The notes beneath the pieces were generated by a model that was given only the letters and a program-made list of their open reading frames with translations, ran no database searches and was not told the origin of the DNA. This document shows, piece after piece, positions 10,232 to 56,164 of a DNA stretch of 56,164 bases. The first letter of the stretch is position 1, and each line of letters begins with the position of its first letter. Origin of the DNA: a bacterium (GTDB lineage: Bacteria > Hydrothermota > Tepidihabitantia > SM23-42 > JAOAFX01); the NCBI GenBank assembly GCA_036382775.1, contig DASVHD010000048.1, forward strand, positions 1 to 56,164, given 5' to 3'. Position numbers and translations under genes: made by a program.

Positions 10232-10305
10232 ATATGATCCAACTGAACTACCAAATAAATTAAATAATGAATAGAACAAAATACCGCACATCCAGGAGGT
10301 TTGAT

Positions 10306-27778: not shown

Positions 27779-28804
27779 ATGCCTAAAGGAATATTATCTT
27801 TTATCAAATGCGCCGGCTGAGCGTCCAAAATGTCGGCTGCGCAGTTGGCGCAGGCTCTATCCGCGCTTCCCAAGATCGAAGATCCTGATCTTCTGGTCGG
27901 GTTGAACACGGCCGATGACGCGGGCGTTTACCGGATCAGCGATGAACTGGCCCTTGTGTACACGATCGACATCCTGGCGCCGGTCGTGGAAGATCCGTTC
28001 ATTTTCGGTCAAATCGCGGCGGCCAATTGCATCTCAGATGTTTACGCGATGGGCGGTGATCCGAAGATCGCTCTCAACATCATCGGGTTTCCCATGAATG
28101 GCGATCCCAAGGACCTCGGCGAAATACTGCGGGGCGGGCAGCACAAGGCGCAGGAAGCCGGGGTCACGATCGTGGGCGGTCACACGTTCAACAACGCGGA
28201 TATCAAATATGGAATGTCTGTGGTCGGCTATATCGATCCCAGCCGGATAATTACCAACGCTGCGGCTAAACCCGGCGATGTCATTCTCCTCACCAAACCG
28301 GTCGGCGTGGGCACTATTCTCCATGCTTACATCCTTGACAAATTGCCCCTTGAAGAAATGGCGCCCGTGGTCGCGGCCATGACCACACTGAACCGCGAAG
28401 CATCGCTCGCGGCGCGTCGCGCCGAAGCCGATGCCGGTACGGATATCACTGGCTATGGCCTGGCCGGACACCTGGTCGAAATGGCGCAGGCCAGTAATAC
28501 GGGGATCGAGCTTTATCTTTCGAAGATACCCGTTCATGAACGGGTGTTGGAGATCTATAAAAGCGGCATCTCGGAACCGGGCATAATGATGAATATGAAC
28601 GCGTTCGGCAGTAATGTGCAGAATGCCAGCGGTAACGATGAACTATTCTCCATTATCTTCGGGGCGGAGACATCAGGTGGCATGGCTATTGTCCTGCCGG
28701 AACAAAAGGTCAGCACCTTTCTGGATAGCTGCAAAGACAAAAATGTGGCGATCATCGGCCGCGTGACATCGGAAAAAGCCGGCCATTTGATCGTGAAACC
28801 ATGA
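27779..28804 (+). CDS. selD: Selenophosphate synthetase, itself a selenoprotein (Sec14)
   Basis: SelD makes selenophosphate from selenide and ATP, the Se donor for Sec-tRNA synthesis. The protein has 341 residues from the ATG at 27779 (AGGAG 8 nt upstream). The in-frame UGA at 27818-27820 is codon 14 in KCAG-Sec-ASK; Sec14 and Lys17 keep the spacing of the catalytic Cys/Lys pair of E. coli SelD. Later motifs are typical: PFIFGQIAAANCISDVYAMGG, GGHTFNNADIKYGMSVVG, LLTKPVGVGT, DITGYGLAGHLVEM and FGAETSGGMAI. Many SelD proteins have Sec here, so the annotation is well founded. Without UGA readthrough the active-site residues would be lost. The DUF4242-like selenoprotein follows after 10 nt. Confidence 0.97.
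27837..27853 (+). promoter_or_regulatory. Candidate SECIS hairpin of selD
   Basis: CTGCGC-AGTTG-GCGCAG is a perfect 6-bp stem with a G as second loop base, 16 nt after the UGA. Confidence 0.75.
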
Positions 28805-28814
28805 GGAGGTCAGT

Positions 28815-29063
28815 ATGCCCAAATACTTGATAACCCTCGCACCCTTGCCTAAAGATATGGTAAATAACACGTGAAAAACGGTCTGTGCTGCTTCTGTAGG
28901 AAGCGGTATGACCTTGGAAAGGGCTTATGTTGATGAAGAACACGGCCAGGCGATCTGCTGTTGGAGCGCTCCTGACCGCGCCAGCATTGAAGGCTTGTTT
29001 GCCAAAGCAAAAGTTACGACGGAATCGATCAGGAAAGTCGAGGAGCACCTACCCTCGCGCTGA
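28815..29063 (+). CDS. Small DUF4242-like selenoprotein (Sec20)
   Basis: An 82-residue protein, with AGGAGGT before the ATG at 28815. The UGA at 28872-28874 is codon 20 (VNNT-Sec-KTVCAAS). Without readthrough only a 19-residue peptide would result. With it the whole frame makes sense: MPKYLITLAPLPKDM, then ERAYVDEEHGQAICCWSAPDRASIEGLFAKA resembles DUF4242 (SCO4226-type ferredoxin-like, reported nickel-binding) proteins, in which VxSYVTDDKxYCxYxAP is the family-like core. Sec20 sits in the loop/helix before a Cys (VCAAS). It is 10 nt from selD, in one operon closed by a terminator. The stop is UGA followed directly by in-frame UAA. A redox or metal role is inferred. Confidence 0.85.
28888..28906 (+). 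promoter_or_regulatory. Candidate SECIS hairpin of the DUF4242-like gene
   Basis: CTGCTTC-TGTAG-GAAGCGG forms 7 pairs including one G-U, 13 nt after the UGA, with G as second loop base. Confidence 0.7.
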
Positions 29064-31494: not shown

Positions 31495-31502
31495 GAGGAC
31501 CT

Positions 31503-32255: not shown

Positions 32256-32286
32256 AATGATAAAACAACAAGGAAAGGAGAGGAAC

Positions 32287-34628: not shown

Positions 34629-34638
34629 GGAGGTTATT

Positions 34639-35433: not shown

Positions 35434-35457
35434 CACGGGCACAATACCACCTTGTTC

Positions 35458-35487
35458 ATGCGGGGTGCGCGCACGCGCACCCCGCAT
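35458..35487 (+). terminator. Strong stem-loop after the methyltransferase gene
   Basis: ATGCGGGGTGCG and CGCACCCCGCAT pair over 12 bp around a 6-nt loop (35458-35487), followed by ATTTG. The U-tract is short. Confidence 0.6.
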
Positions 35488-35520
35488 ATTTGTCATGGGA
35501 TTGCTTACGTATTGCGCCAC

Positions 35521-35549
35521 TTGACTAAAACGGAAATTCTGACTATGCT
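35521..35549 (+). promoter_or_regulatory. Promoter of the corrinoid gene group
   Basis: TTGACT (35521-35526), 17-nt spacer, TATGCT (35544-35549). It lies between the stem-loop at 35458 and the corrinoid gene at 35574. Confidence 0.55.
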
Positions 35550-35573
35550 CGGTAAACTAAGGAGATGAGAAAA

Positions 35574-36221: not shown

Positions 36222-36235
36222 GCCCTGGCAGTACA

Positions 36236-37204
36236 ATGGACAGCGTCACCAAGGTCATAAACAAAGAAAAAAATTACGCCGTCTTTCCCCTGGTCTGCGC
36301 TGATCACTGCGCCTGGCTATGCAAAACACCGTTCAAGGAGGTTGTCCAGGACGGTGAAAAGCTTGCCGGAGTCATTTATCAGGCGTACCAGGAATACGCT
36401 TATGACATGGTCCTCATTTTTTCCGATCCCTATGTTGAAGCCCAAGCCCTGGGTTGCGCCGTGGAATTCAGTCCCCGCCTTAAACTGCTCGGGCCTTCCA
36501 GCCGGATCGTGGAGACGATCGCGCCGATCAAATCGGTCCGCGCCGGCCGCGCCCATGCCAGTTGCGGCATCGACCGCACGCATGTTATCCTTCGCGCCGC
36601 CGAGATCCTTAAGAAAAAGGCACCGGTGCCGGTTTACGTTTCGGTCAAAGGTCCTTTTTCACTGGCCGCTTTCATTGCCACCACCGACCATTTTCTTAAA
36701 CTTTTGATCGTGGCCGAGGAAAAAGCGCGCCGTTTCATCGATGTTGCGCTTGACTTTCAGCATAAGTACATCGCGCGGCTCATCGAGCTGGGCGTCGGTA
36801 TTTTTATCGGCGATCCCATGGCATCGTCCAGCATCATTTCGCCGGAATTGTTCAGGAAGTTCGCTTTTGAACCGCTCCGGATGCTTGTCAAAGAAATAAA
36901 AAATGGGCGCTGCTATGCCGGTATTCATGTCTGCGGCAATTCGCTGCCCATCATGTCCATGCTTGACGATGTGGGCGCGGATATCCTCAGCGTCGAGGAT
37001 ATAAGCCCTGAGACCAGAACCCTGAAAATGGGCGGCGTGTCAACCAGCACGATCTATGAGGGCGATCGTGAAAAGATCAAACACGAGATCTCGCGGGCGG
37101 CGGGTAATACCCGGCTGATCATCAGCACTTCCTGCGACGTGCCGGCAGAGACTGACCCGGTGAACGTGAAAGCGATGATTCAGTTCGCGCGGGAGATTAC
37201 GTGA
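36236..37204 (+). CDS. MtaA/UroD-type methylcobamide methyltransferase 1
   Basis: 322 residues of the uroporphyrinogen decarboxylase superfamily. The zinc-binding trio typical of methylcobamide:coenzyme M-type enzymes is present: His231 and Cys233 in IHVCGNS and Cys300 in ISTSCDVP; true UroD lacks it. The ligand helps activate a thiol or related methyl acceptor. The acceptor in this bacterium is unknown. ASSSIISPELFRKFAFEPL is a shared surface motif. It follows the corrinoid gene by 14 nt and overlaps the RACo-like gene by 4 nt (GTGA), so all three are one unit. Confidence 0.87.
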   Translation: MDSVTKVINKEKNYAVFPLVCADHCAWLCKTPFKEVVQDGEKLAGVIYQAYQEYAYDMVLIFSDPYVEAQALGCAVEFSPRLKLLGPSSRIVETIAPIKSVRAGRAHASCGIDRTHVILRAAEILKKKAPVPVYVSVKGPFSLAAFIATTDHFLKLLIVAEEKARRFIDVALDFQHKYIARLIELGVGIFIGDPMASSSIISPELFRKFAFEPLRMLVKEIKNGRCYAGIHVCGNSLPIMSMLDDVGADILSVEDISPETRTLKMGGVSTSTIYEGDREKIKHEISRAAGNTRLIISTSCDVPAETDPVNVKAMIQFAREIT

Positions 37205-38727
37205 TAAAAGACTCATGCCTTAAATCCATAAAAGGCTCACGCTTGAATTCTCTGGAGTTAACCCGTAAGGGTTTCAACACCCTGCTTGATCTGCTCATTG
37301 AAAAAGGAATCATGGTCCATGCCGCCTGCGGTGGACACGGCCGGTGCGGCAAGTGCCGCGTTAAATTGAAAGGCCGGATAAACGCTCCGACACAACTCGA
37401 AAAAAAATTGATACCACAGCATATGATAAAGCAGGGATACCGCCTGGCATGCCAGTACGTAATAAAAGGCTCACGCCTGGAATTTACCCGTAAGGGTTTT
37501 ATAAAAGGCTTACGCCTGAAATCCTTAAAAGATTCCAGCTTGGAATTTTTCAGTTTGGAGTTAACCCGTAAGGATTTTATACGACGCTGCGGTCTCGCCC
37601 TGGACCTGGGCACGACCGTGATCAAGGGTGCACGCGTCGACCTGGGACGCTGCGAGGTCCTGTCCTTTGCCAAGATCTATAATCCCCAAAATTTTGACGG
37701 CGCCGATGTCATGACCCGCATCAGCGCCGCGCTCAGCGGTCGCTATGACATCCTGCGCCGCCGGCTCCTGAACGGTGTATCGGCGGTCACGAAAGAACTC
37801 GGGTTCGCGGCGGACGCATCCGTGCCCATACCTACGGCCGTGGCCGGCAATCCGGTCATGTCCTCCTTCTATCTTGGTAAACCGGTGGCGGGACTGGCGC
37901 GCTACCCGTATGCCGGTGCCATCACCAAGAACATCCGGCGGAACAAACCTCCGGTTTTCATTTTCGGCAGCATCGGCGGATTCGTGGGCGGCGACACGAT
38001 CGCCGGGATCCTCGCCAGCGGACTGCACAAACGATCCGGTGCTTCGTTCTACATCGACCTGGGCACCAACGGTGAGATCGCCCTGCTCGCAAAACGCCGG
38101 ATACACGCCCTTTCGGCGGCGGCCGGCCCTGCTTTTGAAGGAGCCGGTCTGGAATGCGGCAGCCTGGCAATACCAGGTGCCATTGATGCGATCACGGATG
38201 CAGGGCACAGGTGTTTTCGGGTCCATACTATCGGCAATAAAAAGGCGCATGGTATCTGCGCTTCCGGGCTGATCGACCTGCTCGCCGTCCTGCTGCGACG
38301 CGGATGGCTGACCAGACACGGACGATTGACCAGGACGGTCAAGGTCAGCGGTATAAGCGTTGGACAGGGGGACATTCGTCAGCTTCAGCTGGCGATCGGC
38401 GCCATCCATACGGGCTTGGAGTTCCTCATGGAACACGCCGGGGTCGGCGCGAGTGATATCACCGATGCCGTCATCACCGGTGAATTCGGATCGCACCTCC
38501 GAATTGCCTCGCTCTATCAGATCGGTATAATCCCGACCGGTCTAAGAGCAGTGCGTCTTGAGCGCGACCTGCCGCTAAAGGGCGCGGTCAGCGCGCTCTG
38601 TGATGACCGCGTGCATAAGGATGCGGAGATCATACGCGGACGCAGCCGGCACATTGAACTCGCGATGCAGCCGGATTTTCAGCAGCGCTTTGTCAAGGCG
38701 CTGCAGCTGGCACCATGGAACAGGTAA
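37201..38727 (+). CDS. RACo-like reductive activator of corrinoid proteins, with in-frame repeat insertions
   Basis: 508 residues from a GTG overlapping the upstream stop. The N-terminal [2Fe-2S] ferredoxin domain has CGGHGRCGKC and a later LAC. The ASKHA ATPase domain begins at GLALDLGTTVIKGARV (about residue 130) and shows FIDLGTNGEIALL and GPAFEGAGLECGS. RACo uses ATP to reduce Co(II) corrinoid to the active Co(I) state. Two stretches do not belong: residues about 1-25 and 87-122 (IKGSRLEFTRKGFIKGLRLK...LELTRKDF). They are translated palindromic DNA repeats, one replacing the first ferredoxin strand and one lying between the domains. Function may persist since both sit at domain edges. Confidence 0.87.
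   Translation: MIKDSCLKSIKGSRLNSLELTRKGFNTLLDLLIEKGIMVHAACGGHGRCGKCRVKLKGRINAPTQLEKKLIPQHMIKQGYRLACQYVIKGSRLEFTRKGFIKGLRLKSLKDSSLEFFSLELTRKDFIRRCGLALDLGTTVIKGARVDLGRCEVLSFAKIYNPQNFDGADVMTRISAALSGRYDILRRRLLNGVSAVTKELGFAADASVPIPTAVAGNPVMSSFYLGKPVAGLARYPYAGAITKNIRRNKPPVFIFGSIGGFVGGDTIAGILASGLHKRSGASFYIDLGTNGEIALLAKRRIHALSAAAGPAFEGAGLECGSLAIPGAIDAITDAGHRCFRVHTIGNKKAHGICASGLIDLLAVLLRRGWLTRHGRLTRTVKVSGISVGQGDIRQLQLAIGAIHTGLEFLMEHAGVGASDITDAVITGEFGSHLRIASLYQIGIIPTGLRAVRLERDLPLKGAVSALCDDRVHKDAEIIRGRSRHIELAMQPDFQQRFVKALQLAPWNR
37204..37280. repeat. Palindromic element copy A inside the RACo-like gene
   Basis: Contains ATAAAAGGCTCACGCTTGAA and GGAGTTAACCCGTAAGGG, with the palindrome AACCCGTAAGGGTT at its right side. 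It encodes the residues SIKGSRLNSLELTRKGF in frame. Confidence 0.7.
37460..37580. repeat. Palindromic element copy B inside the RACo-like gene
   Basis: Two consecutive units, ATAAAAGGCTCACGCCTGGA...CCCGTAAGGGTTT and ATAAAAGGCTTACGCCTGAA...GTTAACCCGTAAGGA (quoted in pieces). They contain palindromes AGGCTTACGCCT and ACCCGTAAGGGT. The reading frame stays open throughout. Confidence 0.7.
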
Positions 38728-39725
38728 AGCTCATCGGATATACGTGTTCTTATACGCCGGTCGAGATCCTGAGCGCGACCGGATACCAACCGTACCGTCT
38801 TCTGCACGGGACCATCGACCTGGCGCGCCGCAGCGACGACCGCCTCCGGATCGACGCCTGCCCGCTGGTAAAATCGAACGTTTCATTCATCCTGGAAAAC
38901 CGTGAACGCTTCGCCGCGCTCGTGGGCACGACCGGCTGCGATATGGCGCGCCGCATGTTCGATGTTCTTGACCGCGCAATCGGTGTTCCCACGTTTCTTG
39001 TGAACAACCCGCGTACTGATAATTATCAAATGTATAGCGACGAGATCGACTGGCTGGTTGGGGAATTGCAGCGCCTTTCAGGCAAAGAGATCAATGACCA
39101 GACATTGAGGCCGGAAATAGGACGCTGGGAACAAGCCCGGGACCAGCTTCGCGACATCGATGGGCAGCGCGCCGCGTTGCCGTCCCGCGTTTCGACTTTC
39201 GAATTTCAGCGGTCTGCCGGATATTATTTCACAGGCAGGATCCAGGATATCCCCAAGACCGTTAAGCCTGAACCGACGGACAAACCGCGGGTCTACCTGC
39301 TGGGCAGCCCCCTGGTCTACGAATCGGGCTTTTTGCTCGAGTTGCTCGAATCACACCTGAGAATTGCCGGGGACTTTAATTGCGGCCTGTCCAGGATGTT
39401 GAGCCTGCGCGCGACCGATCCCTGTCTTGAGGGTCTTAAAAAAGCTTATTACCATCAACCACCCTGTATCTTCAAACGCCCCAACCGGGATTTCTATAAT
39501 TGGACAGCCAAGCGCGCGCATGAATTAAAATGCGCGGGCGTGGTGGCACATACGCTTGATTACTGCGACAGCTATGAATTCGAGCTGAAAAAGATCGAGC
39601 GTATGCTGAACCTTCCCCTGCTCAAGGTCCGAAGCGATTTTTCAGCGCAGAATCTCAGCCAGCTGAAAGTACGGATCGAGGCATTCGCCGAAATGATCGG
39701 AGCAAGCCATGGCAGTAAAAAATAA
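38715..39725 (+). CDS. HgdB/DCCP-like protein 2
   Basis: 336 residues of the 2-hydroxyacyl-CoA dehydratase D-component family; it overlaps the RACo-like gene by 13 nt. Cys residues suited to cluster binding occur in IGYTCSYTPVEIL, IDACPLVKSN, GTTGCDMARR, FNCGLSR and LDYCDSYEFE. A typical C-terminal segment LPLLKVRSDFSAQNLSQLKVRIEAFAE ends the protein. It is shorter than HgdB-like 1 (30205) and lacks part of the N-terminal helical domain. It is probably a partner of the next gene (17-nt overlap), forming a two-subunit cluster protein. Confidence 0.8.
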   Translation: MEQVKLIGYTCSYTPVEILSATGYQPYRLLHGTIDLARRSDDRLRIDACPLVKSNVSFILENRERFAALVGTTGCDMARRMFDVLDRAIGVPTFLVNNPRTDNYQMYSDEIDWLVGELQRLSGKEINDQTLRPEIGRWEQARDQLRDIDGQRAALPSRVSTFEFQRSAGYYFTGRIQDIPKTVKPEPTDKPRVYLLGSPLVYESGFLLELLESHLRIAGDFNCGLSRMLSLRATDPCLEGLKKAYYHQPPCIFKRPNRDFYNWTAKRAHELKCAGVVAHTLDYCDSYEFELKKIERMLNLPLLKVRSDFSAQNLSQLKVRIEAFAEMIGASHGSKK

Positions 39726-41100
39726 ACGCTTTATTGACCCGGCCCCCCGGAAAATATCACTGGCGCAGTGGAGCGAGCAATTCCGCCATATCGGCGACGA
39801 CCTGATCCAGAAGTACTGTTACTACGGCAACAAGTCATGGGGCACTTACCTTACCCCGCCGGCGACTTTCATGGTCTACGGCGCTCGCGAACTGAAACGC
39901 CTGCGCCTGGACAATTCGCTGGCATCCTTGAGGATGTGGGGTTTTGTGTTCAACGAATCAGAACGGCTGTTCCGCGCCCGTCAATCAGGTAAAAAGGTCG
40001 TTGCCACAATGGGCGACCTGGGTATTGTTCCTTATATTATCATGGCTTTTCCCGAGTGCATTCCGTTCTATCCGGAATGTATCTGGTGGACGCCGTTCTT
40101 CCGCGAGTCGGCAGACCTGCTGGACGTTGCCACGCAGCTGGGAGCGCCAGAAGCGGCATGTTTTGTCAGGGCCGCGATCTCGGCATTTCACAAGAAAGCG
40201 TATTTTCCCAGGCCCGAACTCCTCATCGCTTCTACCGGCGCTTCTTGCGATGATTATTCTTGCGTGATGCAAATGGTCGAAGATATGGGCCACGAGCTGC
40301 TTTGGCTCGAGATCCCCGCACGTCGTATCCATGAATCGGCGATTGAAACAGCAGCCGATTACCGGGCGCGATTTGAAAATTACTTGATGAACGATTACCA
40401 GAAGGTCTGGGACCGCATGATCCGGCTCACGCGGACGAAAGACATCGATTTTTCAGGACTGCACCAGAGTATACACAAGGCTAACCGGCTCCGGACGCTG
40501 GTGGAAAGCATAAAAGATCTGAATCGCAACGCGCCCTGCCCGCCCCTGCCGGCGCTCGAAATGATGACGGTCGAGTTCGGGAACCTGTACGGGTACGCTG
40601 ACATCGACGAATGGATCAGCATCGTCGAAATGCTTTACGAGACAGTGGCGCATCGGATCGACAAGGGTACCGGCATTGCCGGCGCTGATACCATTCCCAT
40701 CGCCTGGGTCACGCCATCAGCCGATCCCATCCTATTGAATATCGTGGAAGACCTCGGCTGCAGAGTCGTGGAAACTGAATACGTCATCAACCAGGCGCTC
40801 GTACCGATCGATGAGAATATCGAACCTTTCAGAGCGCTAGCGCGGGCGTTCTACCAGGCGTCCCTGATCGGTTCGACACAAGCAAGGGTGGAGCGGATCA
40901 GGCAGGCGGCGCGCGAACGCAAGATCAAAGGGGTACTGATCACCAATATGCTGGGAGCTTCACACTGCGCCATGGAGACGCGGCTCATTGAAAGCATGAT
41001 AACGGAAGTCCCAGTCGTGTCGATCGACATACCCATGCCTTCCGGCGTCACCGAACAGCTCAGGACGCGGCTGGAAGCGTTCGTGGAGATAATGAGATGA
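39709..41100 (+). CDS. HgdB/DCCP-like protein 3
   Basis: 463 residues, beginning inside the preceding gene. It shares the 2-hydroxyacyl-CoA dehydratase fold: TMGDLGIVPYIIMAFPECIPFYPECIWW, LLIASTGASCDDYSC and ITNMLGASHCAMETRLIESMI, with SIDIPMPSGVTEQLRTRLEAFVEIM at the end. Candidate cluster cysteines are in PECIPFYPEC, GASCDDYSC and SHCAME. It has a longer N-terminal helical part than its neighbour. With 38715 it may accept electrons from the activase at 42259. The gene ends in three consecutive UGA codons. Confidence 0.8.
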   Translation: MAVKNKRFIDPAPRKISLAQWSEQFRHIGDDLIQKYCYYGNKSWGTYLTPPATFMVYGARELKRLRLDNSLASLRMWGFVFNESERLFRARQSGKKVVATMGDLGIVPYIIMAFPECIPFYPECIWWTPFFRESADLLDVATQLGAPEAACFVRAAISAFHKKAYFPRPELLIASTGASCDDYSCVMQMVEDMGHELLWLEIPARRIHESAIETAADYRARFENYLMNDYQKVWDRMIRLTRTKDIDFSGLHQSIHKANRLRTLVESIKDLNRNAPCPPLPALEMMTVEFGNLYGYADIDEWISIVEMLYETVAHRIDKGTGIAGADTIPIAWVTPSADPILLNIVEDLGCRVVETEYVINQALVPIDENIEPFRALARAFYQASLIGSTQARVERIRQAARERKIKGVLITNMLGASHCAMETRLIESMITEVPVVSIDIPMPSGVTEQLRTRLEAFVEIMR

Positions 41101-41242
41101 TGATGACGAATATTCCGAATAAAAATATCACGAATGGTACGAATGATCTTTTTAAAAATATTCGAATTATTCGCTATCATTCGCAGGATTCGCTTTCTAT
41201 GATATTCGTGATATTCGCTGTCATTCGTTCAATTCGCATCCA
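41101..41242. repeat. CGAAT-N4/ATTCG repeat tract, copy 3, with inverted halves
   Basis: The left half carries CGAAT pentamers and the right half ATTCG pentamers, spaced mostly by 4-5 nt or 10-11 nt. The two halves are roughly inverted copies. It fills the gap between two genes that otherwise form an operon, and leaves the downstream ATG at 41243 without a ribosome site. Confidence 0.7.
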
Positions 41243-42268
41243 ATGAAAGATGTTCTAACATCGCGTGAACGTTTCGGACTGCTGGTCATCGACGAAAGAC
41301 CAGACCGCGTGAATGTCATGCCCTTGATCACGTCGCACGCGGCAACCGTTGCCGGCATCAAGCTCAAGGAGTACTACACGAACGGAGAGGCAATGGCGCG
41401 CGCCCAGCTTGTCGCCCTTGAAAAATACGGCCACGATGCGATCGCTGTTTTTTCGGAGGTCGGGATCATCGCCGAAGCCATGGGTTCGGCGTTCACTTAT
41501 CCCGAAAACGACCTTCCGGTCTTAAAAAAAGGAGCGCTGGAGATCAAAAAACTTGCCGGCATTAAAGTGCCGGATCCGGAAAAGGACGTGCGACTGCCCG
41601 TCTACCTTCAAGCGATCGAATATGCCTATGCCGCTGTTGCCGACCGCGTGCCGATCCTTGCCTTCGTGCCGGCGCCTTTCACAACCGCCATGTCGCTGGG
41701 CGCGCCTGACCAGTTCCTGATCGATACTATCCGCAACCGATCGCAGGTCAACGCGTTGCTCGACTTGTCCCTGCAAGCCTGCAAGGAATTTTGCTACGCG
41801 ATCATCAACGCCGGAGGGCTGCCCGTGCTTGTCGATCCGCTGGCATCAAGCAGCGTCATCAGCCCGCGTACCTACCGGGAATTTGCCCTGCCCTACGAGG
41901 CCGATTTGATCAGGTTCCTGCACCGCTATGACCTCGACATTGTTCTGCATATTTGCGGCGATACCACGCCTATCCTGGAGCTGCTGCCCGAAACGCATGC
42001 CGATCTCGTGAGCGTTGATCAGGTTGACATGGATAATGTTCTGGATAAAGTATCCAGAGACATGAGGATCATAGGTAATTTCAACACGTCACTATTGGCG
42101 CAGGCAACCCCGGATATCATTGCACGGGAGACTTCGATGATGGTCCGCTCGGCCATGCACAGCCCGCGGGGCTATGTCGCCTCGACCGGTTGTGAAGTCC
42201 CCATTCACACGCCATCCCCCAATGTCCGCGCGTTCGTCATGGCTGCCAAGGAGGCCGGTTGGTATTAG
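41243..42268 (+). CDS. MtaA/UroD-type methylcobamide methyltransferase 2
   Basis: 341 residues of the UroD superfamily with His236 and Cys238 in LHICGD and Cys317 in STGCEVP, the zinc-ligand pattern of methylcobamide:thiol methyltransferases. The similarity to the 36236 protein is moderate, so the two are likely paralogues with different donors or acceptors; one of them could even serve as the substrate-side methyltransferase, since no MttB/MtaB-type gene is visible. The AUG has no recognisable ribosome site because of the repeat upstream. The stop overlaps the next start by 10 nt. Confidence 0.87.
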   Translation: MKDVLTSRERFGLLVIDERPDRVNVMPLITSHAATVAGIKLKEYYTNGEAMARAQLVALEKYGHDAIAVFSEVGIIAEAMGSAFTYPENDLPVLKKGALEIKKLAGIKVPDPEKDVRLPVYLQAIEYAYAAVADRVPILAFVPAPFTTAMSLGAPDQFLIDTIRNRSQVNALLDLSLQACKEFCYAIINAGGLPVLVDPLASSSVISPRTYREFALPYEADLIRFLHRYDLDIVLHICGDTTPILELLPETHADLVSVDQVDMDNVLDKVSRDMRIIGNFNTSLLAQATPDIIARETSMMVRSAMHSPRGYVASTGCEVPIHTPSPNVRAFVMAAKEAGWY

Positions 42269-42981
42269 GCATTGACGTGGGCTCGCTCTATTCAAAGGGC
42301 GTGCTTTTTGACGGTGAGATCCGGAAAAAAGTGGTGGTAAAAACCTCATACCGGCCCAGAGAGGCGATCGCGGAGATCAAAAGGGAATTATGGGGATATA
42401 ACCTCATCGCCGCCACCGGTTATGGCCGCGAGCTGGTGACCGACGCCCACCGCACCATCACCGAGATCAGCGCTTTTGCGCGCGGCGCCGCTTACATCGA
42501 CCGGACGGTCAGGACCATCATTGACATCGGCGGGCAGGACAGCAAGGTCATTAAATTAAAAGATGGCGCGCTTGACCGCTTCGTGATGAATGACCGCTGC
42601 GCCGCGGGTACCGGTAACTTCATCGAAAAAATGGCGCAGGCGCTTGACCTGACGCTCGAAGAGTTCGGGGCCCTGGCGCTGAAATCAGGGCGTCCCGAGC
42701 CGATCGACTCGTTATGCGTGGTGATGGCCGAGACCGAGATCCTGAGCCTGGTCAGCGAAGGCAAAAGGATCGAGGATATTATTTTCGGCATCTGCGATTC
42801 GCTTATCCGCCGGATCATCGGCATAAGCGGCCAGATCGGCATCGAAGATCCGGTGCTTTTCTGCGGCGGCGGCGCCCTGAATCCGGGCCTGGTAAAAGCA
42901 TTGGAACACAATCTGCATTCGGTCATGCAGTCACCTATCCCGCAGTACGTCGGCGCGCTGGGCGCCGCTCTGTCCATCTAG
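42259..42981 (+). CDS. BcrA/HgdC-type activase 2
   Basis: 240 residues with a TTG start (AAGGAGG 4 nt upstream, inside the preceding gene). Motifs: VLGIDVGSLYSKGVLF, DIGGQDSKVIKLKDG, MNDRCAAGTGNFIEKMAQ, LCVVMAETEILSL and FCGGGALNPG, all in the order of the ASKHA activator family with both cluster cysteines. It is a paralogue of the activase at 31503. It probably energises the HgdB-like pair at 38715/39709. Confidence 0.87.
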   Translation: MVLGIDVGSLYSKGVLFDGEIRKKVVVKTSYRPREAIAEIKRELWGYNLIAATGYGRELVTDAHRTITEISAFARGAAYIDRTVRTIIDIGGQDSKVIKLKDGALDRFVMNDRCAAGTGNFIEKMAQALDLTLEEFGALALKSGRPEPIDSLCVVMAETEILSLVSEGKRIEDIIFGICDSLIRRIIGISGQIGIEDPVLFCGGGALNPGLVKALEHNLHSVMQSPIPQYVGALGAALSI

Positions 42982-44426: not shown

Positions 44427-45857
44427 ATGAAAAAAATAAAGGAAAAAAACGCACCTTCTGAAAAAGGCAGCGCGCTCAGGCAGATCCCGGCCGTCGATGC
44501 CGTGCTGGGCTGGGATGAAATAAAACCGTTCTGCGAAACCTTTGAACACGCGCATCTTCTAACGGTCGTCAGGGACTTAATCGACGATTTCCGTAAACGC
44601 CTTGCTGCCGGAGAATCTCTGAAGCTCGACGACTTGAAAAAAAGCATGCGCGATGAACTCGGAGCTTTGACCAGCCACTATTACCGATACGCGATAAATG
44701 CGCTGGGTATCGTCCTCCACACGGGTCTGGGCCGCGCGCCGTACAACAATGATATTCCTGAAACGCTGCGCGCGGTATCAACGGGTTACTCGGTCCTCCA
44801 GATCGACGACGAAGGCAAGCGCGCCGACCGCTATCATAAGCTCAGCCGTCTTTTGCAGATCCTGACCGGAGCCGAGGCGGGCATGATGGTCAACAACAAC
44901 GCGGGCGCGACCCTGCTGATATTAAGCGCCCTGGCAAAGGACCGCGAGGTCATAGTTTCGCGCAGCCAGCTTATCGAGATCGGCGGCGCGTTCAGGATCC
45001 CCGATGTGATGGCGATGAGCGGGGCGGTCATGCGCGAGGTGGGCACGACGAACCGCACCCATCTTAAGGATTACGAAGGCGTGATCAATGATAGAACCGC
45101 GGCATTGCTGCGTGTCCATCAGTCCAATTACCGCATCACCGGTTTCACCAAGGAAGTATCGCTCGACGAACTGGTCGCCCTGGGAAAAAAATACAGCATC
45201 CCCGTGATCGACGACCTTGGCAGCGGCGCCCTGGTCGACCTGGCTGCTTATAAATTGCCCCGGGAACCGCTGGTGCAGGAAAGCGTAAAAGCCGGTGCCG
45301 ACGTAATCTGCTTCAGCGGCGACAAACTCATCGGCGGACCACAATGCGGTATCATTGTTGGCCGGAAAAAATACATCGACCTCATCAAGAAAAACCCCCT
45401 GCACCGGGCGCTGCGCTGCTGCAAGCTGACCAATGCAGCCCTGGAAACGACGCTGCAGCTTTTCCTGCTTAAAGAAGAGCAATTGATGAAGAAACACCGG
45501 GTCCTGTCCATGCTCGTCCGGCCCCTTGACGAGATCAAAACACACGCCGAGAACTGTGCCCGTCAATTAAAGACGCTTTCCGGTCATGTCCGCATCGAGG
45601 TAAGACCTTCAAAATCAGAGGTCGGTGGCGGCTCGCTCAGCACTGAAGAGCTGCCGACATACGTGGTCGCCCTGAAGCCTGAAAAAATATCGGTCGAAAC
45701 GCTGGCCCGGGCATTAAGAACGTACTCCACGCCGATCTTCGGCCGGATCGAAACCGACCAGCTGCTGCTTGATTTCCGGACGATCCTCGAAGGTGAGGAA
45801 GAGATCATAATCAAAGCACTGAATGAGATCCTTGGTGGGGAAAAAGTTGGTAGTTGA
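44427..45857 (+). CDS. selA: L-seryl-tRNA(Sec) selenium transferase
   Basis: 476 residues. SelA uses pyridoxal phosphate to convert Ser-tRNA(Sec) to Sec-tRNA(Sec) with selenophosphate from SelD. Lys300 in VICFSGDKLIGGPQCG is the expected cofactor lysine. The N-terminal ~90 residues bind tRNA in the family (RQIPAVDAVL is the usual opening). YSVLQIDDEGKRADR and LRALRCCKLT-like text (LHRALRCCKLTNAALE) fit. It has its own promoter and is followed by selB after 177 nt of unremarkable spacer. Confidence 0.97.
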   Translation: MKKIKEKNAPSEKGSALRQIPAVDAVLGWDEIKPFCETFEHAHLLTVVRDLIDDFRKRLAAGESLKLDDLKKSMRDELGALTSHYYRYAINALGIVLHTGLGRAPYNNDIPETLRAVSTGYSVLQIDDEGKRADRYHKLSRLLQILTGAEAGMMVNNNAGATLLILSALAKDREVIVSRSQLIEIGGAFRIPDVMAMSGAVMREVGTTNRTHLKDYEGVINDRTAALLRVHQSNYRITGFTKEVSLDELVALGKKYSIPVIDDLGSGALVDLAAYKLPREPLVQESVKAGADVICFSGDKLIGGPQCGIIVGRKKYIDLIKKNPLHRALRCCKLTNAALETTLQLFLLKEEQLMKKHRVLSMLVRPLDEIKTHAENCARQLKTLSGHVRIEVRPSKSEVGGGSLSTEELPTYVVALKPEKISVETLARALRTYSTPIFGRIETDQLLLDFRTILEGEEEIIIKALNEILGGEKVGS

Positions 45858-46034: not shown

Positions 46035-47948
46035 ATGACCAAACACATCGTCATCGGCACGGCAGGGCATATTGACCATGGCAAGAGCGCTCTGATAAAA
46101 GCGCTCACCGGTACTGACCCGGACCGGCTCAAGGAAGAAAAAGAAAGAGGCATGACCACTGACCTCGGGTTCGCGTTCTACGGAGACAATGTCACCATCA
46201 TCGATGTCCCCGGTCATGAAAAATTCGTCAGACACATGCTTGCCGGTGCAAGCACCATCGATTTCGTGTTCCTGGTCATTGCCGCTGACGACGGGATCAT
46301 GCCTCAGACCACGGAACACCTTGATATCCTTAAATTACTGGAATTAAAGCAGGGTATCATCGTTCTTACCAAACGGGACATGGTTGACGCAGAGCATCTG
46401 GAAATGGTCACGGAAGAAATAAGAGATTATGTCGCCGGCACTTTCCTGGAGAACGCTCCGATCGTCCCGGTATCAAATACTACCGGCGAGGGCATTGACA
46501 CTCTTAAAAAGATGATCGACGGTCTGATCCCTAAATTGGAAACCAAGACAGACCGGGGTGTTTTCCGAATGCCGATCGATCGGTGCTTCACGATAAAGGG
46601 ATTCGGCACCGTTGTCGCCGGTACGATCCTGTCCGGAACGGTAAGAGTTGGCGAAACCTACGAGATCCTGCCCTCGGGTAAAAAGGTAAAGATCCGGGGC
46701 ATCGAGGTCCATAATCATGAGGTTACCGAAGCCGGAACCGGGTATCGGGCGGCGATCAACCTCACCGGCGTGGAAAAAGAAGAAGTGGAACGCGGCGACG
46801 TGATAAGCCAGGTCAACTTTTACACGCCATCAAGCTTCATCAACGCTTCGCTGTATATCCTGCAGTCGGCAGAAAAACCGCTGAAGAACCTGGTGCGGTT
46901 GCGCATTCATTTCGGCACAAAAGAGGTGCTGGGCAGGATCGTCATCCTGGAAAAGAAAACCCTGGCGCCGGGCGAAAAGGGCATGGTTCAGTTCCGTCTG
47001 GAAACGCCGGCGGTCTGCGACGTCGGCGACCGGTATGTCATAAGAACTTATTCCCCTCCCATGACGATCGGCGGCGGCGTTATAATTGAACCCAAGGCGG
47101 AAAAGGTCAAAGGATTTGACGAACAGCTGATCGAACATCTGCACAAGATCGAGGACCGCGATCCCGTTATCATGATCAAGGAAAACCTCATGTCAAATTA
47201 CCTGCTACCGCGTAAGATCGACGAGATCGCATATGACCTCAATCTCCAGGCAGCACAGGTGCAGGGTATCGTGCAGGAGCTGTTAAAAGACAGCGAAGTC
47301 GTACGCATCGATGAAAAACGCGGCCTGTATTACGAGGCCGAGAACATGACAAAAATGCGCTCAAGGATCAAGGAGATCCTGACAGAATATCACAGAAGCA
47401 ATCCAACGCTAACCGGCATGCCGAAGATCGACCTCGGCATCGGCATTGGCCGCGGGCTCGATAACACGCTGCTTGGTTATGTGCTGGAACGTATGTCCGG
47501 GGATAAGATCGTTAAAGTTGCGTCGGATAACAAGGTCAGCCTCCACGACTTCGGCGTCGTGCTGGACAAGGGGCTTGATACCATGGTTAAAAAACTGGAT
47601 AAGTTATATTGCACGAGCGAATACAAACCGCCCGATTACAACGAGCTCATCGCGCAACAGCACGGTCCCGAGGATATCGTGAAAAAAGCATACCGTTATC
47701 TGATCGATACGGGGCTGGTGATATTCCTGGGCGAAGGGATCGCCATGCACAGGACAATGGTGGACCAGGCACGGGAAAGACTGGTCAAGTTCCTTAAAAC
47801 CAACAAGGAGATCCGCGTCGCTGAATTCCGCGACCTGCTGGGCGGGACCAGCCGTAAATACGCTTTGCCGCTGCTCATCTATTTTGACACGAAAGGCGTA
47901 ACTATCAGACGCGGCGAGGTCAGGGTTTCAGGACAAACTGGCAGTTAA
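46035..47948 (+). CDS. selB: Sec-specific elongation factor
   Basis: 637 residues. SelB binds GTP, Sec-tRNA(Sec) and the SECIS hairpin to deliver Sec at UGA. The EF-Tu-like GTPase domain has [17 protein letters not shown] (P-loop), [22 protein letters not shown] and LTKRDMVD. Domains II-III follow, then a C-terminal row of winged helices from about residue 390 ([45 protein letters not shown]), which recognise the hairpin in the mRNA. Full length for the family. It lies between selA and the tRNA-Sec gene. Confidence 0.97.
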
Positions 47949-49509: not shown

Positions 49510-49603
49510 TGGCGGAGGCGTGTAGGAATCGAACCTACCATCCCCCTTTCGAGGGATAGCTGGGTTTGAAGCCCAGTAGGCACACCAGCACCTATCCGCC
49601 TCC
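49510..49603 (-). tRNA. selC: tRNA-Sec (anticodon UCA), CCA encoded
   Basis: On the minus strand the gene runs from 49603 to 49510. The 5' GGAGGCG pairs with CGCCTCC before discriminator G and encoded CCA. The anticodon arm CTGGG-CTTCAAA-CCCAG holds UCA (plus coordinates 49567-49569). The long variable arm (TATCCC...GGGGGAT) and T arm GTAGG-TTCGATT-CCTAC fit. The acceptor has a possible G-A mismatch at the eighth pair. Serine is first loaded on it, then SelA converts it to Sec. Confidence 0.95.
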
Positions 49604-49919: not shown

Positions 49920-51833
49920 ATGAGAAAAAATTTTGTCATCGTCTCAATGCTCATGATCAGTCTGGCGAGCGCGTCCACCCTGCTCTCGAACGGTGATTTC
50001 GAACAGGAATTTTCCGTCGGATGGCAGAACAGCGCTCCGGGTTATTACGATTCATTGCTCAGAGGCCCGGACTACCAACCTGATCCCGATATGGAAGCTT
50101 ATGTGTTCCACGCCTACGGTGGATATTTTAGACTTTCCCAGACCGTGGACATCCCTTCAACCGACCTGCAATTTTCGATCGAAGCCAGCATGTCAGCGTA
50201 CGACAACAATGCGGATACGCTGTGCTGGGCCGCGGCCGCGGTAATTGTTTCCTACCTTAGCGAAGGCAACGCGGTTCTTGGACAAACCCGGATCTGCAGT
50301 TACACGACACCATGCCCCTGGGTGAGTTCGAGCACGGTCCACCTGATCCCGGTAGCTGACGAATCATGGCACACTTATTCCTTCAGCGTAACTTCAGAGC
50401 TCGGCAACCTGCCGGGCGTAGATCCCCTGCTGATCAAGAAGGTCGAGGTCGCCCTCTATGACACGGCAGCGCACACGTGCTGAGGCGCGGCAGAACAGGC
50501 GAAGGTCTTCGCCGATAATGTCGCGCTGAATTACACCGGCTCGCTGCCATTTGTAAACCTGCAAAAGAACACGGTCTATGACGCAGGCGGTAATAATAAC
50601 AATCATATCGATCCCGGTGAAACGGTCAACCTGACCGCAACGATGAAAAACGTGGGCGGCGTGAATTTCACGAATCTCACCGCCACGTTGCAGACATCGG
50701 ACCCGTACATCACGATCACGGATAACTCGGGCAGTTTCGGCGCCCTGCTGGTCGACAGCACGAAGGAGAATATTCCCGATCCGTTCGAGCTGACGGCTAG
50801 CGCGTCGACGCCCATGGGACATGCGGCAGTGTTCACGCTCATCGTCCAGGAAGGCGCTTTTGCCGACACCTTCACGATCAACCATGTCATCGGCACGTAT
50901 GATTATCTCATCTGGAATCCTGATTTGACACCGGGACCAGGTCAAGCCGCGGACGACATTCTCACGGCGCTCGGCTATAACGGCGTTTACGCGACGACCA
51001 TGCCCCTGACCGACTTAGCTCAATACCGTGCCGTCCTGGTGTTCCTGGGGATCTTCCCGAACAACGAGGTCATCGAAGCAGCTAGTCCGGAAGCCGCAGC
51101 CCTTGTAAACCATATCAATTCCGGCGGCAGGATGTACATGGAGGGCGGCGATTGCTGGTATTATGACCCGCTGGTCGGCGGCTACAATTTCTGCCCGATC
51201 TTCGGCATCTATGCCTCTGCCGATGGTTCCACCGACCTGGGACCGATAAGCGGACAGACCGGCACGTTCACGAACCAGATGAACTTCACGTATACCGGGG
51301 AAAATAGTTATATGGACCACATCGATCCGACCGGCACCGGTTATCTGATCTTCATGGATACCGATAACGCGTACAATTGCGGGATCGCCAATGATGCCGG
51401 CACTTACCGGACCGTCGGCACGTCCTTCGAGCTCGGGAACCTTACAGACGGGAGCGGTGTTTCGACACGGGCGGCGCTGCTGGATTCGATCATGCATTTC
51501 TTCGGCGTCCATGTCACGGCGGTCAAAGAAGACGCCGGGACGCAAGCCATAGGCCTTCGGTTCAGCCTGCGCGCACTACCGAATATTAGCCATGGCACCG
51601 TGCAGATCACCTACAGTGTCAAGCATCCCGCCGGCACAGAGCTCAAGGTCTATGACGCCGCTGGCAGGGTAGTCAATGATCTTTCGCGCAATCTGTCGAG
51701 CGCAGCGGTAAGCGGTATGATAACCTGGCCGGGAAAAGACCAGTCGGGCAGACCGGTCTCGGCCGGCATCTATTTCATACGCTTGTCTTCCGGAGGTTTG
51801 CAGCAAACCGCAAAGGTCATCCTTACACAATAG
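49920..51833 (+). CDS. Secreted multidomain selenoprotein 1 with Cys187-Sec188
   Basis: 637 residues with UGA at 50481-50483 as codon 188. Signal peptide (about 1-20), then a jelly-roll-like domain that starts LLSNGDFEQEFSVGWQNS, a style of carbohydrate-binding modules. It ends at DTAAHT-Cys-Sec-GAAE. The following part has an Ig/CARDB-like segment (NHIDPGETVNLTATMKNVGG, about 215-300), then a domain beginning YDYLIWNPDLTPGPGQAADDIL with MYMEGGDCWYYDPLVGG, resembling a flavodoxin or gingipain-like alpha/beta fold. The end is a sorting domain (YDAAGRVVNDL...SAGIYFIRL). Domain 1 strands continue across the UGA (VFADNVALNY), and its paralogue is open at the same place. Function is unknown. Confidence 0.86.
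50498..50513 (+). promoter_or_regulatory. Candidate SECIS hairpin of HTCU selenoprotein 1
   Basis: GGCGAA-GGTC-TTCGCC, perfect 6-bp stem with the GGUC loop, 14 nt after the UGA. The loop matches the GGUC(U) of E. coli fdhF. Confidence 0.8.
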
Positions 51834-51968: not shown

Positions 51969-53891
51969 ATGCCCTTGAAATGTTTCTGCACCCTCACCGC
52001 GGCTCTGCACATCTGTTTCAGCGCGGTGCTTTTGACCAACGGCGATTTTGAACGCAGTTTTGGCACCGGCTGGCAGATCCATGCTCTTTGGGCGGCTGAT
52101 TCGGTCAGCCGCTGCACATGGTATGATCCAGACCCGGATTATGAAGCCCTGGTATATACATCCAATGGCGGTTCGCCGCGGCTGTACCAGCGCGTCAACA
52201 TCCCGGTCACTGCCCTTGACTTTTCCGCCATTTTGAAACTTTCCGCTGACGATAACAATGCCGATACGCTGTGCTGGGCAGCGGCCGCGCTGGTCATCTC
52301 GTACGTCAACCAGTCAGGGAATGTGCTCGGGCAGACGAGGATCGGCCAATGGACCACGCCTTGCCCGTGGCAAAACAGCCCGGTCCTTCATCTCGTGAGC
52401 GTCGCAGACACGCTTTGGAACGCGTATTCATTTTCGATCGACAATGAACTCGCACAACTGCCCGGGGTTGACCCGGCGCAGGTCCGGAGCATTGAGATCG
52501 CGCTTTTTGACACGACGGCGCACACCTGCTGAGGGGCGATTGAAACAGCGAGGGTCTTCGCTGATGACATTGCCCTGAATTACACCGGTGTTCTGCCGTT
52601 CCTGGACCTTGTATCAACGGCTGTTTATGACGCGGCCGGCAACAACAATAATCATCTGGATCCCGGTGAATCGGTCAGCCTGACAGCTACCCTAAAAAAC
52701 ATCGGCGGCCTCGATCTCACGAACCTCTCGTCCACCCTGCAGACATCAGACCCCTTTATTACGATCAGCGATAATTCCACGGTTTACGGCGCCCTGCCGG
52801 TCGACAGCGTGAAAGAGAACCTCAGCGATCCATTCACCCTGACCGCTGACATAAGCACGCCCGAAGCGCATCAAGCATTTTTCAGCCTCATCGCAACGGA
52901 TGACGGCGCCGATTTCGTTGATACGTTCTATTTCATTATCGTCATCGGTGACTACCATTACCTCGTGTGGAACCCGGACCTGACTCCTTCGTCGGGCCGA
53001 CTGATCGACAGCATCCTAACCGCCCTGGGGTATACTGGAATGTACAGCACGACCCTGCCGGCAGATGACATTGATCTGTTCAAGGCGGTCTTCGTTTGTG
53101 CCGGCGTCTACGGCAGTAATTATATTATCAGTGAATACAGCCCCGAAGCAGCAGCCCTTGTCAATTACCTGGGTGGCGAGGGACGCGTCTACCTCGAAGG
53201 GGGCAACGTATGGTATGCAGACCCTCTGGCATACGGGGGTTATAATTTCAACCTGCTTTTCGGCATCAACGCTCTGGACGACGGCGGGGAAATGATGCCG
53301 ATCTTCGGACTTGAAAACACGTTCACCCGGGGTATGTCTTTTTCTTATGGCGGCGAAAACGTGTTCATGGATATTATCGAACCGGATGGTTCTGAACCAT
53401 TCTTGATCTTCAAAGACAGCGCCCAGGTGGGCCGCGCGGTCGCATGGGATGCGATGATCTACCGGACCGTGGGGTCCGCGTTCGAACTGGGCGGACTAAT
53501 CGACGGTCTGGGCGTGAGCACCCGCGCCGCGCTTTTGGATTCTATAATGCATTTCTTCGGCATATCTGGCACAGGAATTTCTGAAGAAACTTCATATCCG
53601 ACCGAACAGGACACGCGATTATCTTTGACGGTCAGCCCTAACGTAACCAGGATCAGGGTCAATATTGTCTTCACCGCAGAGCCGGGGGTTCAGGATCTAG
53701 GATTAAAGATCTTTGACGCATCCGGTAGATTAACAAAGAATCTGCTACCTACTACCTACTCCATACTACCTACTGCTGTCTCATGGGATGGTACTAATTC
53801 AGACGGCAACAAAATCCCTGCCGGCGTATATTTCGTCCGCCTGCAAGCGGACAGCCGGCAACAAACGGCGAAGATCATACTTGTACGTTAG
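51969..53891 (+). CDS. Secreted multidomain selenoprotein 2 with Cys187-Sec188
   Basis: Paralogue of the gene at 49920, 640 residues, UGA at 52530-52532 at the identical codon number 188 (DTTAHT-Cys-Sec-GAIE). The parts are as in paralogue 1: a signal peptide, a domain opening VLLTNGDFERSFGTGW, an Ig/CARDB-like segment (NHLDPGESVSLTATLKNIGG), the YHYLVWNPDLTPSSG domain, and a sorting domain. The sorting domain contains an odd stretch LLPTTYSILPTA (53741-53776) from repeated CTACCTACT-type DNA, inserted without breaking the frame. The start has only a weak AGGAA site. The two paralogues have separate promoters and a terminator between them, so they can be regulated independently. Confidence 0.86.
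52546..52563 (+). promoter_or_regulatory. Candidate SECIS hairpin of HTCU selenoprotein 2
   Basis: CAGCGAG-GGTC-TTCGCTG, 7 pairs with one G-U, GGUC loop, 13 nt after the UGA. Compared with paralogue 1 one G-C pair has become A-U, through a synonymous change in the right arm (GCC to GCT). Confidence 0.8.
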
Positions 53892-53943: not shown

Positions 53944-53971
53944 TTGACAGTCCATGAAAATGAATTATAAT
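53944..53971 (+). promoter_or_regulatory. Promoter of Omp28-like selenoprotein 1
   Basis: TTGACA (53944-53949), 16-nt spacer, TATAAT (53966-53971), followed by AAAGGAGG before the ATG. Confidence 0.8.
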
Positions 53972-54014: not shown

Positions 54015-55091
54015 ATGAAACATAATTTCAGTATAATGTTAAGCATCGTCGCTGGGCTGGCCATTGCTAATATGGCTTTCGCCGCTCAGCGCGTGGTATT
54101 ATGCGAAGAAGCGTATTCTGAGGGCTGAGGCAGCTGCGCAGCCGCCAGCTGTACGCTGGACGTAATTTCTGTGCTGTACCCCACAAGGGTAGCCGCGGTG
54201 GAATGGCACCCGTACACGAGTTATCCGCTGGGTCTGCTGGAGTCATATCAACGATGGTTTTCATACCCGGCGCCGTATTATTACTGGAATGGCGTGGATT
54301 CGGTATGGGCTTATGCGACGCCATGGCTTTGGGTAGACGGAGACAAGGATCCTGCTTACCTGACCGGCACATGGCGCTCGAAAACAATCACCGAGATGAA
54401 CAAACCTTCACCACTAACCTGCACAATGTGGGGGAATTATACTCTGACCGAAGGCACCGGTACGATCTATGCCAAGTTTCGCAATGATTCAACCGCAACC
54501 ATATCCGGCAGGATCAGGTTCGTGCTCACAGAAGACAGTATCTACTATGCGGCTCCAACAGGTGACCTCTGGCATAACCATGTAGCTCGGGACTATATAC
54601 CCGATACGAGCGGTACCGCCTTTACGCTGGCTCCCGGTGACTCAATAACGACCAGCCGCAGTTTCACGGTACAAGCCGGTTGGAACCAAAACCGCTGCAA
54701 ATTAATCGCCTGGGCTCAGAGTACAACCTTACTGGCTGACTCAACCAGGGATGTCTGGCAGAGCGGCATCAAGAACGTCGCAGACCTGATCGTCGACGTT
54801 GATGAGGCCAAGCTGGCAACGCTCAGGCCGCCCGTTGTGCTGGCGCCGAACCCCTGCGTCAACGAGGTGAAACTGTCGTTCTCGCTGTACCAGGGTCTTT
54901 CCTACACGCTGAACATCTATGACATCACGGGCCGCAGGATCAGCACATTCCGGGGCATTGCCGCGGGTGATAAGGAAACTGTAACCTGGAACCTGAGGAA
55001 CGATACCGGCGCGCGCGTGACATCGGGCGTTTATTTTTACCGCTTTGACAGCGCGCGGCTCAAGAATTCGGGCAAGATCGTGGTGAAATAA
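54015..55091 (+). CDS. Omp28/thioredoxin-like secreted selenoprotein 1 (Sec38-x-x-Cys41)
   Basis: 358 residues, with AAAGGAGG before the ATG at 54015. The signal peptide ends AFA at about residue 23. Then AQRVVLCEEAYSEG-Sec-GSC-AAASCTLDVISVLYPTRVAAVEWHPY follows: this is the Omp28-like/thioredoxin active-site region, where family members read VLVEEFTxxxCxxC. UGA at 54126-54128 replaces the first Cys of CxxC. A WxWVDGD and ALAPGDSITTSRSFTV-like region follows. The last 80 residues are a sorting domain (NPCVNEVKLSFSL...YDITGRRISTF). A thiol-selenol redox activity outside the cell is inferred. A strong terminator follows. Confidence 0.88.
54143..54162 (+). promoter_or_regulatory. Candidate SECIS hairpin of Omp28-like selenoprotein 1
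   Basis: CCAGC-TGTAC-GCTGG is a 5-bp core (54145-54159), extended by two pairs across a bulged A; the core starts 16 nt after the UGA, with G as second loop base. Confidence 0.7.
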
Positions 55092-55111
55092 ACGAATAAC
55101 GAACGGCAATT

Positions 55112-55146
55112 ATCCAAACGGGACCCGTGGAGGGTCCCGTTTGGAT
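55112..55146 (+). terminator. Terminator between the two Omp28-like genes
   Basis: ATCCAAACGGGACCC and GGGTCCCGTTTGGAT pair over 15 bp with a 5-nt loop, then TTAT. Very stable, though the U-tract is short. Confidence 0.8.
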
Positions 55147-55155
55147 TTATACCCC

Positions 55156-55183
55156 TTGACATACATTGATATGAGATTATAAT
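55156..55183 (+). promoter_or_regulatory. Promoter of Omp28-like selenoprotein 2
   Basis: TTGACA (55156-55161), 16-nt spacer, TATAAT (55178-55183). Confidence 0.8.
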
Positions 55184-55243
55184 ATCACATAATTGAGTGT
55201 TACTATTAATATGGGTAACAAAAAAACAATAAAAGGAGGCTTT

Positions 55244-56164
55244 ATGAAACATTGTTTTAGTATAGTACTAAGTATCGTGGCTGGTCTGGTTCTTGTAAGC
55301 ATGGCTCACGCGGCCCAAAGGGTGGTGGTCTGTGAAGAGTTGTATTCAGAGACCTGACCGTCTTGCCCTACAGCCAGCAGTACGCTGGCTCAAATAGCTA
55401 TAAATTATCCCGGACGCGTCGCGCTTATGGAATTGCACATAAACAGCGGCTATCCGCTATATAGTGCAGAAGCTTATCAGCGGTACCATTTCTACCGACC
55501 GCCGTACAGTGGGGGATATGCCACTCCCTGGCTTTGGTATGACGGCGATCAGCATGGCAGCTACACATACTCGCAATGGCAGACAAAGATCGTTGCTGAG
55601 ATGAATAAAGCTTCGCCATTCACATTGACCACCTGGGGAACCTACACCGCCTTCAGAGGTTCAGGCACTATATATGCTAAATTCAGGAATGATTCATCGG
55701 CAACCGTAACCGGCAAGATTCGGTTTTGCCTGACTGAAGATAGTGTTTACTATTCTGCTCCGAACGGCGACACCTGGCACAACCATGTCGTCCGAGATTA
55801 TCTTCCCGACACCGGAGGGACGTCTTTTACCCTGGCTTCTGGTGACTCCATAACCGTCTCGCGGGCTTTCACGGTTTCAGCAAGTTGGAACGAGAACAAG
55901 TGCGAGATTATAACCTGGGCTCAGAGCAACGGGTATCTTGCCGACTCGACCAGAGATATATGGCAGGGCGGGATCCAGAAGGTCACGAGCCTGGTCAATG
56001 TCGATGAAGGTAACCTGACCGAACTCAGGCCGCCCGTGCTGCTGGCGCCTAACCCTTGCGTCAACGAGGCGAAACTGTCGTTCTCGCTGTACCAGGGTCT
56101 TTCCTACACGCTGAACATCTATGACAACATGGGCCGCAGGATCAGCACGTTCAATGGTATTGCT
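55244..56164 (+). CDS. Omp28/thioredoxin-like secreted selenoprotein 2 (Sec38-x-x-Cys41), cut by window end
   Basis: Paralogue of the gene at 54015; 307 codons are visible and the frame is open at the end. AAAGGAGG precedes the ATG at 55244. The signal peptide ends AHA (about residue 23). The active-site segment VVVCEELYSET-Sec-PSC-PTASSTLAQIAINYPGRVALMELHI has UGA at 55355-55357, codon 38 exactly as in paralogue 1, giving Sec-Pro-Ser-Cys. The sequence then follows paralogue 1 closely (TPWLWYDGDQ, FTLTTWGTY, RFCLTEDSVYYSAP) into the sorting domain (NPCVNEAKLSFSL, YDNMGRRISTF). Upstream of Sec, the Cys30 is also shared. Confidence 0.87.
55372..55390 (+). promoter_or_regulatory. Candidate SECIS hairpin of Omp28-like selenoprotein 2
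   Basis: AGCCAGC-AGTAC-GCTGGCT, perfect 7-bp stem, 14 nt after the UGA, G as second loop base. The inner five pairs are shared with paralogue 1. Confidence 0.8.

Follow-up and report, generated by a model that had tools for sequence, protein, structure and literature searches.

Most of the selenoproteins known from bacteria are redox enzymes of the cytoplasm or periplasm. Among the described systems closest to the locus treated here is GOS_C, a marine selenoprotein first described in 2008 from 74 Sec sequences as having a thioredoxin-like fold (Zhang & Gladyshev; PMC2398784) and listed in a 2026 review as "hypothetical protein GOS_C" with a UxxC motif, where it is equated with NF045500 (PMC13188914); in NCBIfam this entry bears the name "Omp28-related selenoprotein". 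Another is HBP35 of P. gingivalis, whose thioredoxin activity in vitro requires C48 and C51 (PMC2907840) and for which secretion through the Por/type IX system is reported (PMC3120885).

The window, meaning the whole stretch of DNA that was analysed, comprises positions 1-56,164 of the forward strand of contig DASVHD010000048.1 (GCA_036382775.1), and its host is an uncultured WOR-3 (Stahlbacteria) bacterium. Two genes, A and B, stand there in tandem and encode products with 64% identity over 316 aa (Table 1). The product of gene A is laid out as a signal peptide, a thioredoxin-like domain with U38-G-S-C41, an Omp28 region and a C-terminal sorting domain. Each gene is preceded by a Shine-Dalgarno sequence, with AAAGGAGG in front of the start ATG of gene A, and by a putative promoter; 1.8 such promoter-like sites are expected in the shuffled region. 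The signal peptides, read directly from the sequence, end in AFA-AQ and AHA-AQ, and Sec would follow the first 13 or so residues of the mature chain (mature residue 14). Both genes very probably encode Sec-containing, exported thioredoxin-fold proteins of the HBP35/Omp28 type that would act as oxidoreductases.

Table 1. Features of the window, in order of position, with their strand and particulars.
Feature	Position	Strand	Particulars
selD	27779..28852	+	TIGR00476 319.7 bits; in-frame UGA (KCAGUASK)
selA	44427..45857	+	TIGR00474 537 bits; own UGA stop after 476 codons
selB (Sec-specific elongation factor)	46035..47948	+	TIGR00475 359.9 bits; winged-helix PF09106, PF09107
tRNA-Sec	49514..49603	-	ARAGORN; Rfam RF01852 80.4 bits
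Neighbouring secreted selenoprotein	49920..51833	+	HTCUGA, U188; CBM-like N-terminal domain, FlgD/sorting-type C-terminus
Neighbouring secreted selenoprotein, second copy	51969..53891	+	U188
Promoter-like TTGACA-16-TATAAT, gene A	53944..53971	+	12/12 consensus match, putative
omp28-type selenoprotein gene A	54015..55091	+	358 codons with UGA=Sec
UGA (Sec) codon, gene A	54126..54128	+	codon 38, EGUGSC; sole in-frame TGA
SECIS-like hairpin, gene A	54144..54160	+	GCCAGC-UGUAC-GCUGGA, 16-32 nt 3' of UGA
C-terminal sorting domain, gene A	54843..55088	+	residues 277-358; TIGR04183 32.3 bits, cut-off 23
Promoter-like TTGACA-16-TATAAT, gene B	55156..55183	+	12/12 consensus match, putative
omp28-type selenoprotein gene B	55244..56164	+	contig end cuts 3' end; U38-P-S-C41
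UGA (Sec) codon, gene B	55355..55357	+	codon 38, ETUPSC; sole in-frame TGA
SECIS-like hairpin, gene B	55373..55389	+	GCCAGC-AGUAC-GCUGGC

A preliminary description of the region had named two tandem paralogues with UGA in Sec-GSC and Sec-PSC, and both reading frames are present as it claimed. Its picture of secreted, Omp28-like proteins with a thioredoxin fold and a sorting domain is likewise borne out by domain and structure comparisons, and so is its placement of UGA at the first Cys of a CxxC-like motif. The Omp28 family PF11551 matches both products above its gathering threshold of 34.9 bits (39.4 bits over residues 102-233 in A, 47.8 bits over residues 95-225 in B). As this match begins on the C-terminal side of the Sec motif, Pfam alone leaves the nature of the UGA column undecided, and alignments of homologues and of profiles with PDB chains were used instead. 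Among 66 aligned homologues, the UGA column is occupied by Sec 43 times and by Cys 23 times, with no other residue, and the column at +3 is Cys in every one. This implies that UGA stands where a thioredoxin-type CxxC has its N-terminal catalytic residue; the Cys rows read TWCTYCPGAAR or alike, which is a classical site of this type. A single-sequence phmmer search of the PDB gave no match at the thioredoxin domain, and a profile built from 15 sequences matched Atu2684 (2axo, E 5.5e-5), thioredoxins and HBP35 (5y1a). The UGA column falls on the first active-site Cys of all three in these profile alignments, so that the outcome which the preliminary description had named as refuting, a UGA column apart from the catalytic Cys, did not occur.

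The structural comparison leads to the same fold. An AlphaFold model computed from a 56-row alignment (pLDDT 92.7) places Sec (U14 of the mature chain) between a predicted strand 1 at residues 4-9 and a predicted helix 1 at residues 17-30, with the invariant Pro79 preceding a modelled strand at 80-83. The best Foldseek match in the PDB is HBP35 (5y1a, E 7e-13, 366 columns), followed by transglutaminases with low TM-scores only. With regard to export, the sorting domain at the C-terminus of gene A passes the TIGR04183 cut-off and falls just below the Pfam threshold of Por_Secre_tail PF18962 (24 against 27); these scores refer to gene A, as the corresponding tail of gene B is cut by the contig end. 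SprA, the single type IX component searched for, is represented in the source genome (G000:C36) by an 1846-aa frame with a SprA_N match of 73.5 bits. The sorting domain suggests that the outer membrane is probably crossed by the type IX system, and together with the SprA homologue the domains make export to the cell surface likely.

The preliminary description had also doubted that a secreted Omp28-like selenoprotein with a sorting domain belongs to a standard family; the novelty which this implies is overstated, given the curated NF045500 entry and the 2008 report of GOS_C. It must then be considered whether the WOR-3 proteins are plain GOS_C/NF045500 members with nothing new about them. The Omp28 domain and the UxxC type of motif are held in common, and the match to NF045500 is significant, but the two proteins score only 46.8 and 45.9 bits against a curated cutoff of 200, which none of 61 relatives reaches. 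With scores so far below the cutoff, the WOR-3 proteins belong to a known kind of selenoprotein but form a group of their own within it. Moreover, the closest WOR-3 matches to NF045500, at up to 82 bits, are mainly Cys forms or long (~600 aa) paralogues and do not come from the Sec-rich short clade. In the tree, the 39 short Sec rows form one clade with a support of 100/100, and the long paralogues mix Sec and Cys, with four changes needed to explain the Sec/Cys label. Neither the WOR-3 relatives nor 296 genomes from the phylum to which a Kapaibacterium match belongs yielded an NF045500 member over the cutoff, and in those 296 genomes the NF045500 matches listed have no interior TGA. The Sec column of GOS_C appears to correspond to U38, judging from match coordinates. 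Plain membership is unlikely on these data. The WOR-3 group is, as far as sequence comparison can tell, a separate clade composed entirely of predicted Sec proteins, and is not the first Omp28-type selenoprotein. The literature searched contained no earlier description of such a group, large, spread across a phylum and provided with an export tail: searches on Sec Omp28, WOR-3 and Stahlbacteria gave no match, and those on type IX-secreted selenoproteins returned unrelated work only.

In the proposed mechanism, UGA-38 would be read as Sec by the SelA, SelB, SelD and tRNA-Sec encoded in the window, guided by a downstream bacterial SECIS hairpin. The signal peptide would take the protein out of the cytoplasm, and the type IX system would then carry it across the outer membrane. 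Once outside, the selenolate of Sec, which follows strand 1 and stands at the N-terminal end of helix 1, would attack a substrate disulfide or an oxidised sulfur or selenium group, and Cys-41 would resolve the reaction via a Sec-Cys selenenylsulfide, by analogy with the Cys homologue HBP35. Surface thiol/selenol-disulfide exchange is a function that we infer with moderate confidence from this analogy. The active site could also serve the handling of peroxide, selenium, metal or heme at the surface, as the structural homologue HBP35 binds hemin; this binding, however, is independent of its CxxC (PMC2907840). The Sec copies do depart from the classical site, with Trp before the catalytic residue in 0/43 Sec rows compared with 17/23 Cys rows and Pro at +4, after the CxxC, in 9/43 compared with 22/23, which fits such a role, but the invariant resolving Cys and the thioredoxin geometry suit disulfide exchange. 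We regard such handling in place of disulfide exchange as improbable.

The signal for decoding UGA-38 as Sec can be examined at the RNA level. The hairpin has the consensus (G)CCAGY-NNNNN-RCTGG(C), located 16 to 32 nt past the UGA, and the second base of its loop is G in all but one of 38 Sec rows. Folding of the single sequences, compared with shuffles, gives z 0.8 for gene A, whose hairpin is not unusually stable, and about -1.5 for gene B, a weak signal, and a null model of synonymous codons was used for this reason. The 38 Sec rows keep a mean of 5.53 of the 6 stem pairs, compared with 3.11 in synonymous-codon shuffles (sd 0.20, maximum 3.87, n=2000), and the Cys rows keep 3.2 pairs at the hairpin position. 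The loop is closed by bases 21 and 27, counted from the UGA; this pair links the wobble position of a Ser codon to that of the codon two downstream, and occurs as T-A (22), C-G (13), T-G (2) and C-A (1). Over 34 distinct rows, 92% of the stem cells are paired, with 16 double-change cells observed as opposed to 6.9 in shuffles (0/500 shuffles as high), and pairing drops to 15-45% in slid registers. This comparative evidence, including compensatory wobble changes, indicates that the hairpin is under selection for RNA structure beyond the protein.

The genes selA, selB and selD and the tRNA-Sec all lie in the same window as genes A and B, and tRNA-Sec is also found near omp28-type genes in two further genomes (G047 and G055). 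In one family (f4), eight genomes have only UGA-free copies among the matches listed, and these genomes have no selA and no tRNA-Sec above the cut-off. Three genomes are less regular. G026 (79% completeness) has UGA copies but no selA or tRNA-Sec that is complete or above the cut-off; the incomplete genome G018 has UGA copies and selA only as a fragment; and the single match with a TGA in G027 (255 aa) is weaker and comes with no selA over the cut-off and a sole RF01852 match of 48.4 bits, barely above the threshold.

Conservation across genomes bears on whether UGA could have another meaning. Homologues are present in 58 of 61 relatives, and across the phylum 45 of 147 genomes contain strong matches, 79 in all. 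An interior TGA is found once in 78 of these 79 copies, one of which also has a TAG; in the remaining copy (G022:C161) a stretch of N makes the TGA site unreadable. A real stop at UGA, in pseudogenes or genes for short peptides, would agree with the standard table 11 reading, which ends at codon 37, but it is hardly credible given a protein conserved at full length beyond the UGA, the single interior UGA in so many copies, seven of them in the source genome with exactly one TGA each, the SECIS covariation and the Cys homologues; pseudogenes and chance read-through were rejected on these comparative data. Genome-wide reassignment of UGA, for example to Trp or Gly, has several window ORFs that continue through a TGA in its favour, but is just as remote, as the homologous residue is Cys and never Trp or Gly, the Sec machinery is complete and UGA terminates topA as well as selA; since selA stops at UGA, the codon still works as a normal stop and is not globally reassigned, and a recoded UGA was rejected. 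Comparison thus gives very high confidence to the prediction that Sec is decoded at the catalytic column.

Directly upstream of gene A lies a tandem pair of genes for the HTCUGA proteins of about 640 aa each. All 24 aligned rows have U at the Sec column, no Cys form was seen among them, and a hairpin follows the UGA on its 3' side. The N-terminal domain is predicted to resemble a carbohydrate-binding module (pLDDT 87.9; Foldseek E 3e-6 to 3e-4, with modest TM-scores). These proteins look like an undescribed selenoprotein family. An HTCUGA-type gene is found within 2 kb of an omp28-type Sec gene in at least 23 of 69 places, in 18 genomes, the 69 including the copy with the unreadable site. A functional link between the two types is likely. 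From their gene neighbourhood, the HTCUGA CBM-like proteins may plausibly be partners or substrates of the Omp28-type proteins, and the partner hypothesis as a whole is held with low to moderate confidence; a redox-pair mechanism for the two would be a guess. A broader proposal is a WOR-3 surface selenium redox system, made up of type IX-exported UxxC proteins and exported Cys-Sec CBM-like proteins encoded near tRNA-Sec and sel genes, in which the Omp28 protein would be the oxidoreductase of its neighbour's Cys-Sec bond; this is tentative, and we consider it possible rather than probable.

Further reading frames with an in-frame UGA were noted in passing. Two secreted proteins with sortilin/BNR repeats (7988-10231 and 10267-12576) have one each at matching places, in LEGAGUGNAEL (U417) and LEGSGUGKAQL (U436), with a near-identical predicted hairpin after the UGA. 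The secreted protein at 12626-13939 has UGA in RNHCUTKG (U98) and a predicted hairpin, and gave no Pfam or NCBIfam match. At 30205-42981, ORF translations read by eye suggest a cluster of corrinoid/methyltransferase, benzoyl-CoA-reductase-activator-like and uroporphyrinogen-decarboxylase-like genes, within which the frame at 36236-37207 reads through a UGA shortly before its end. Outside the window, near the Omp28-type gene of G013, a divergent Omp28-like ORF on the minus strand of locus L028 (from base 2575 of the reverse complement) likewise contains a UGA in frame, and its column is that of genes A and B (DNUGFC).

A candidate phylum that retains several exported, probably surface-located selenoprotein copies per genome is surprising, because selenium is costly and no cytoplasmic reductant is available outside the cell. 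The short all-Sec clade and the mixed long-type paralogues form a Sec/Cys comparison set for the question of why selenium is used there. As standard gene calling ends at codon 37 and leaves the remainder of the protein detached from its signal peptide and catalytic motif, such WOR-3 surface proteins are probably mis-annotated.

Compared with known systems, the likeness to DUF1223 (PF06764; Atu2684, PDB 2axo) lies in the surroundings of the active site, with 14 of 56 homologues matching at E <= 0.01, but the match is confined to this part and DUF1223 has the Cys form. PF11551 is matched at the same level by 52 of the 56 aligned homologues, although outside WOR-3 the family, where examined, has no interior TGA. 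HBP35 (5y1a) resembles the whole mature chain, with an N-terminal thioredoxin-like domain, beta domains, a sorting domain and an aligned catalytic column; it differs in its CxxC instead of UxxC and in its identity of 12%, and hemin binding has been shown for HBP35 only. NF045500/GOS_C is likewise Omp28-related, with a thioredoxin-like fold and Sec as the first residue of UxxC (here UGSC and UPSC), but the WOR-3 proteins stand in a clade of their own, with several copies per genome and a sorting domain on gene A.
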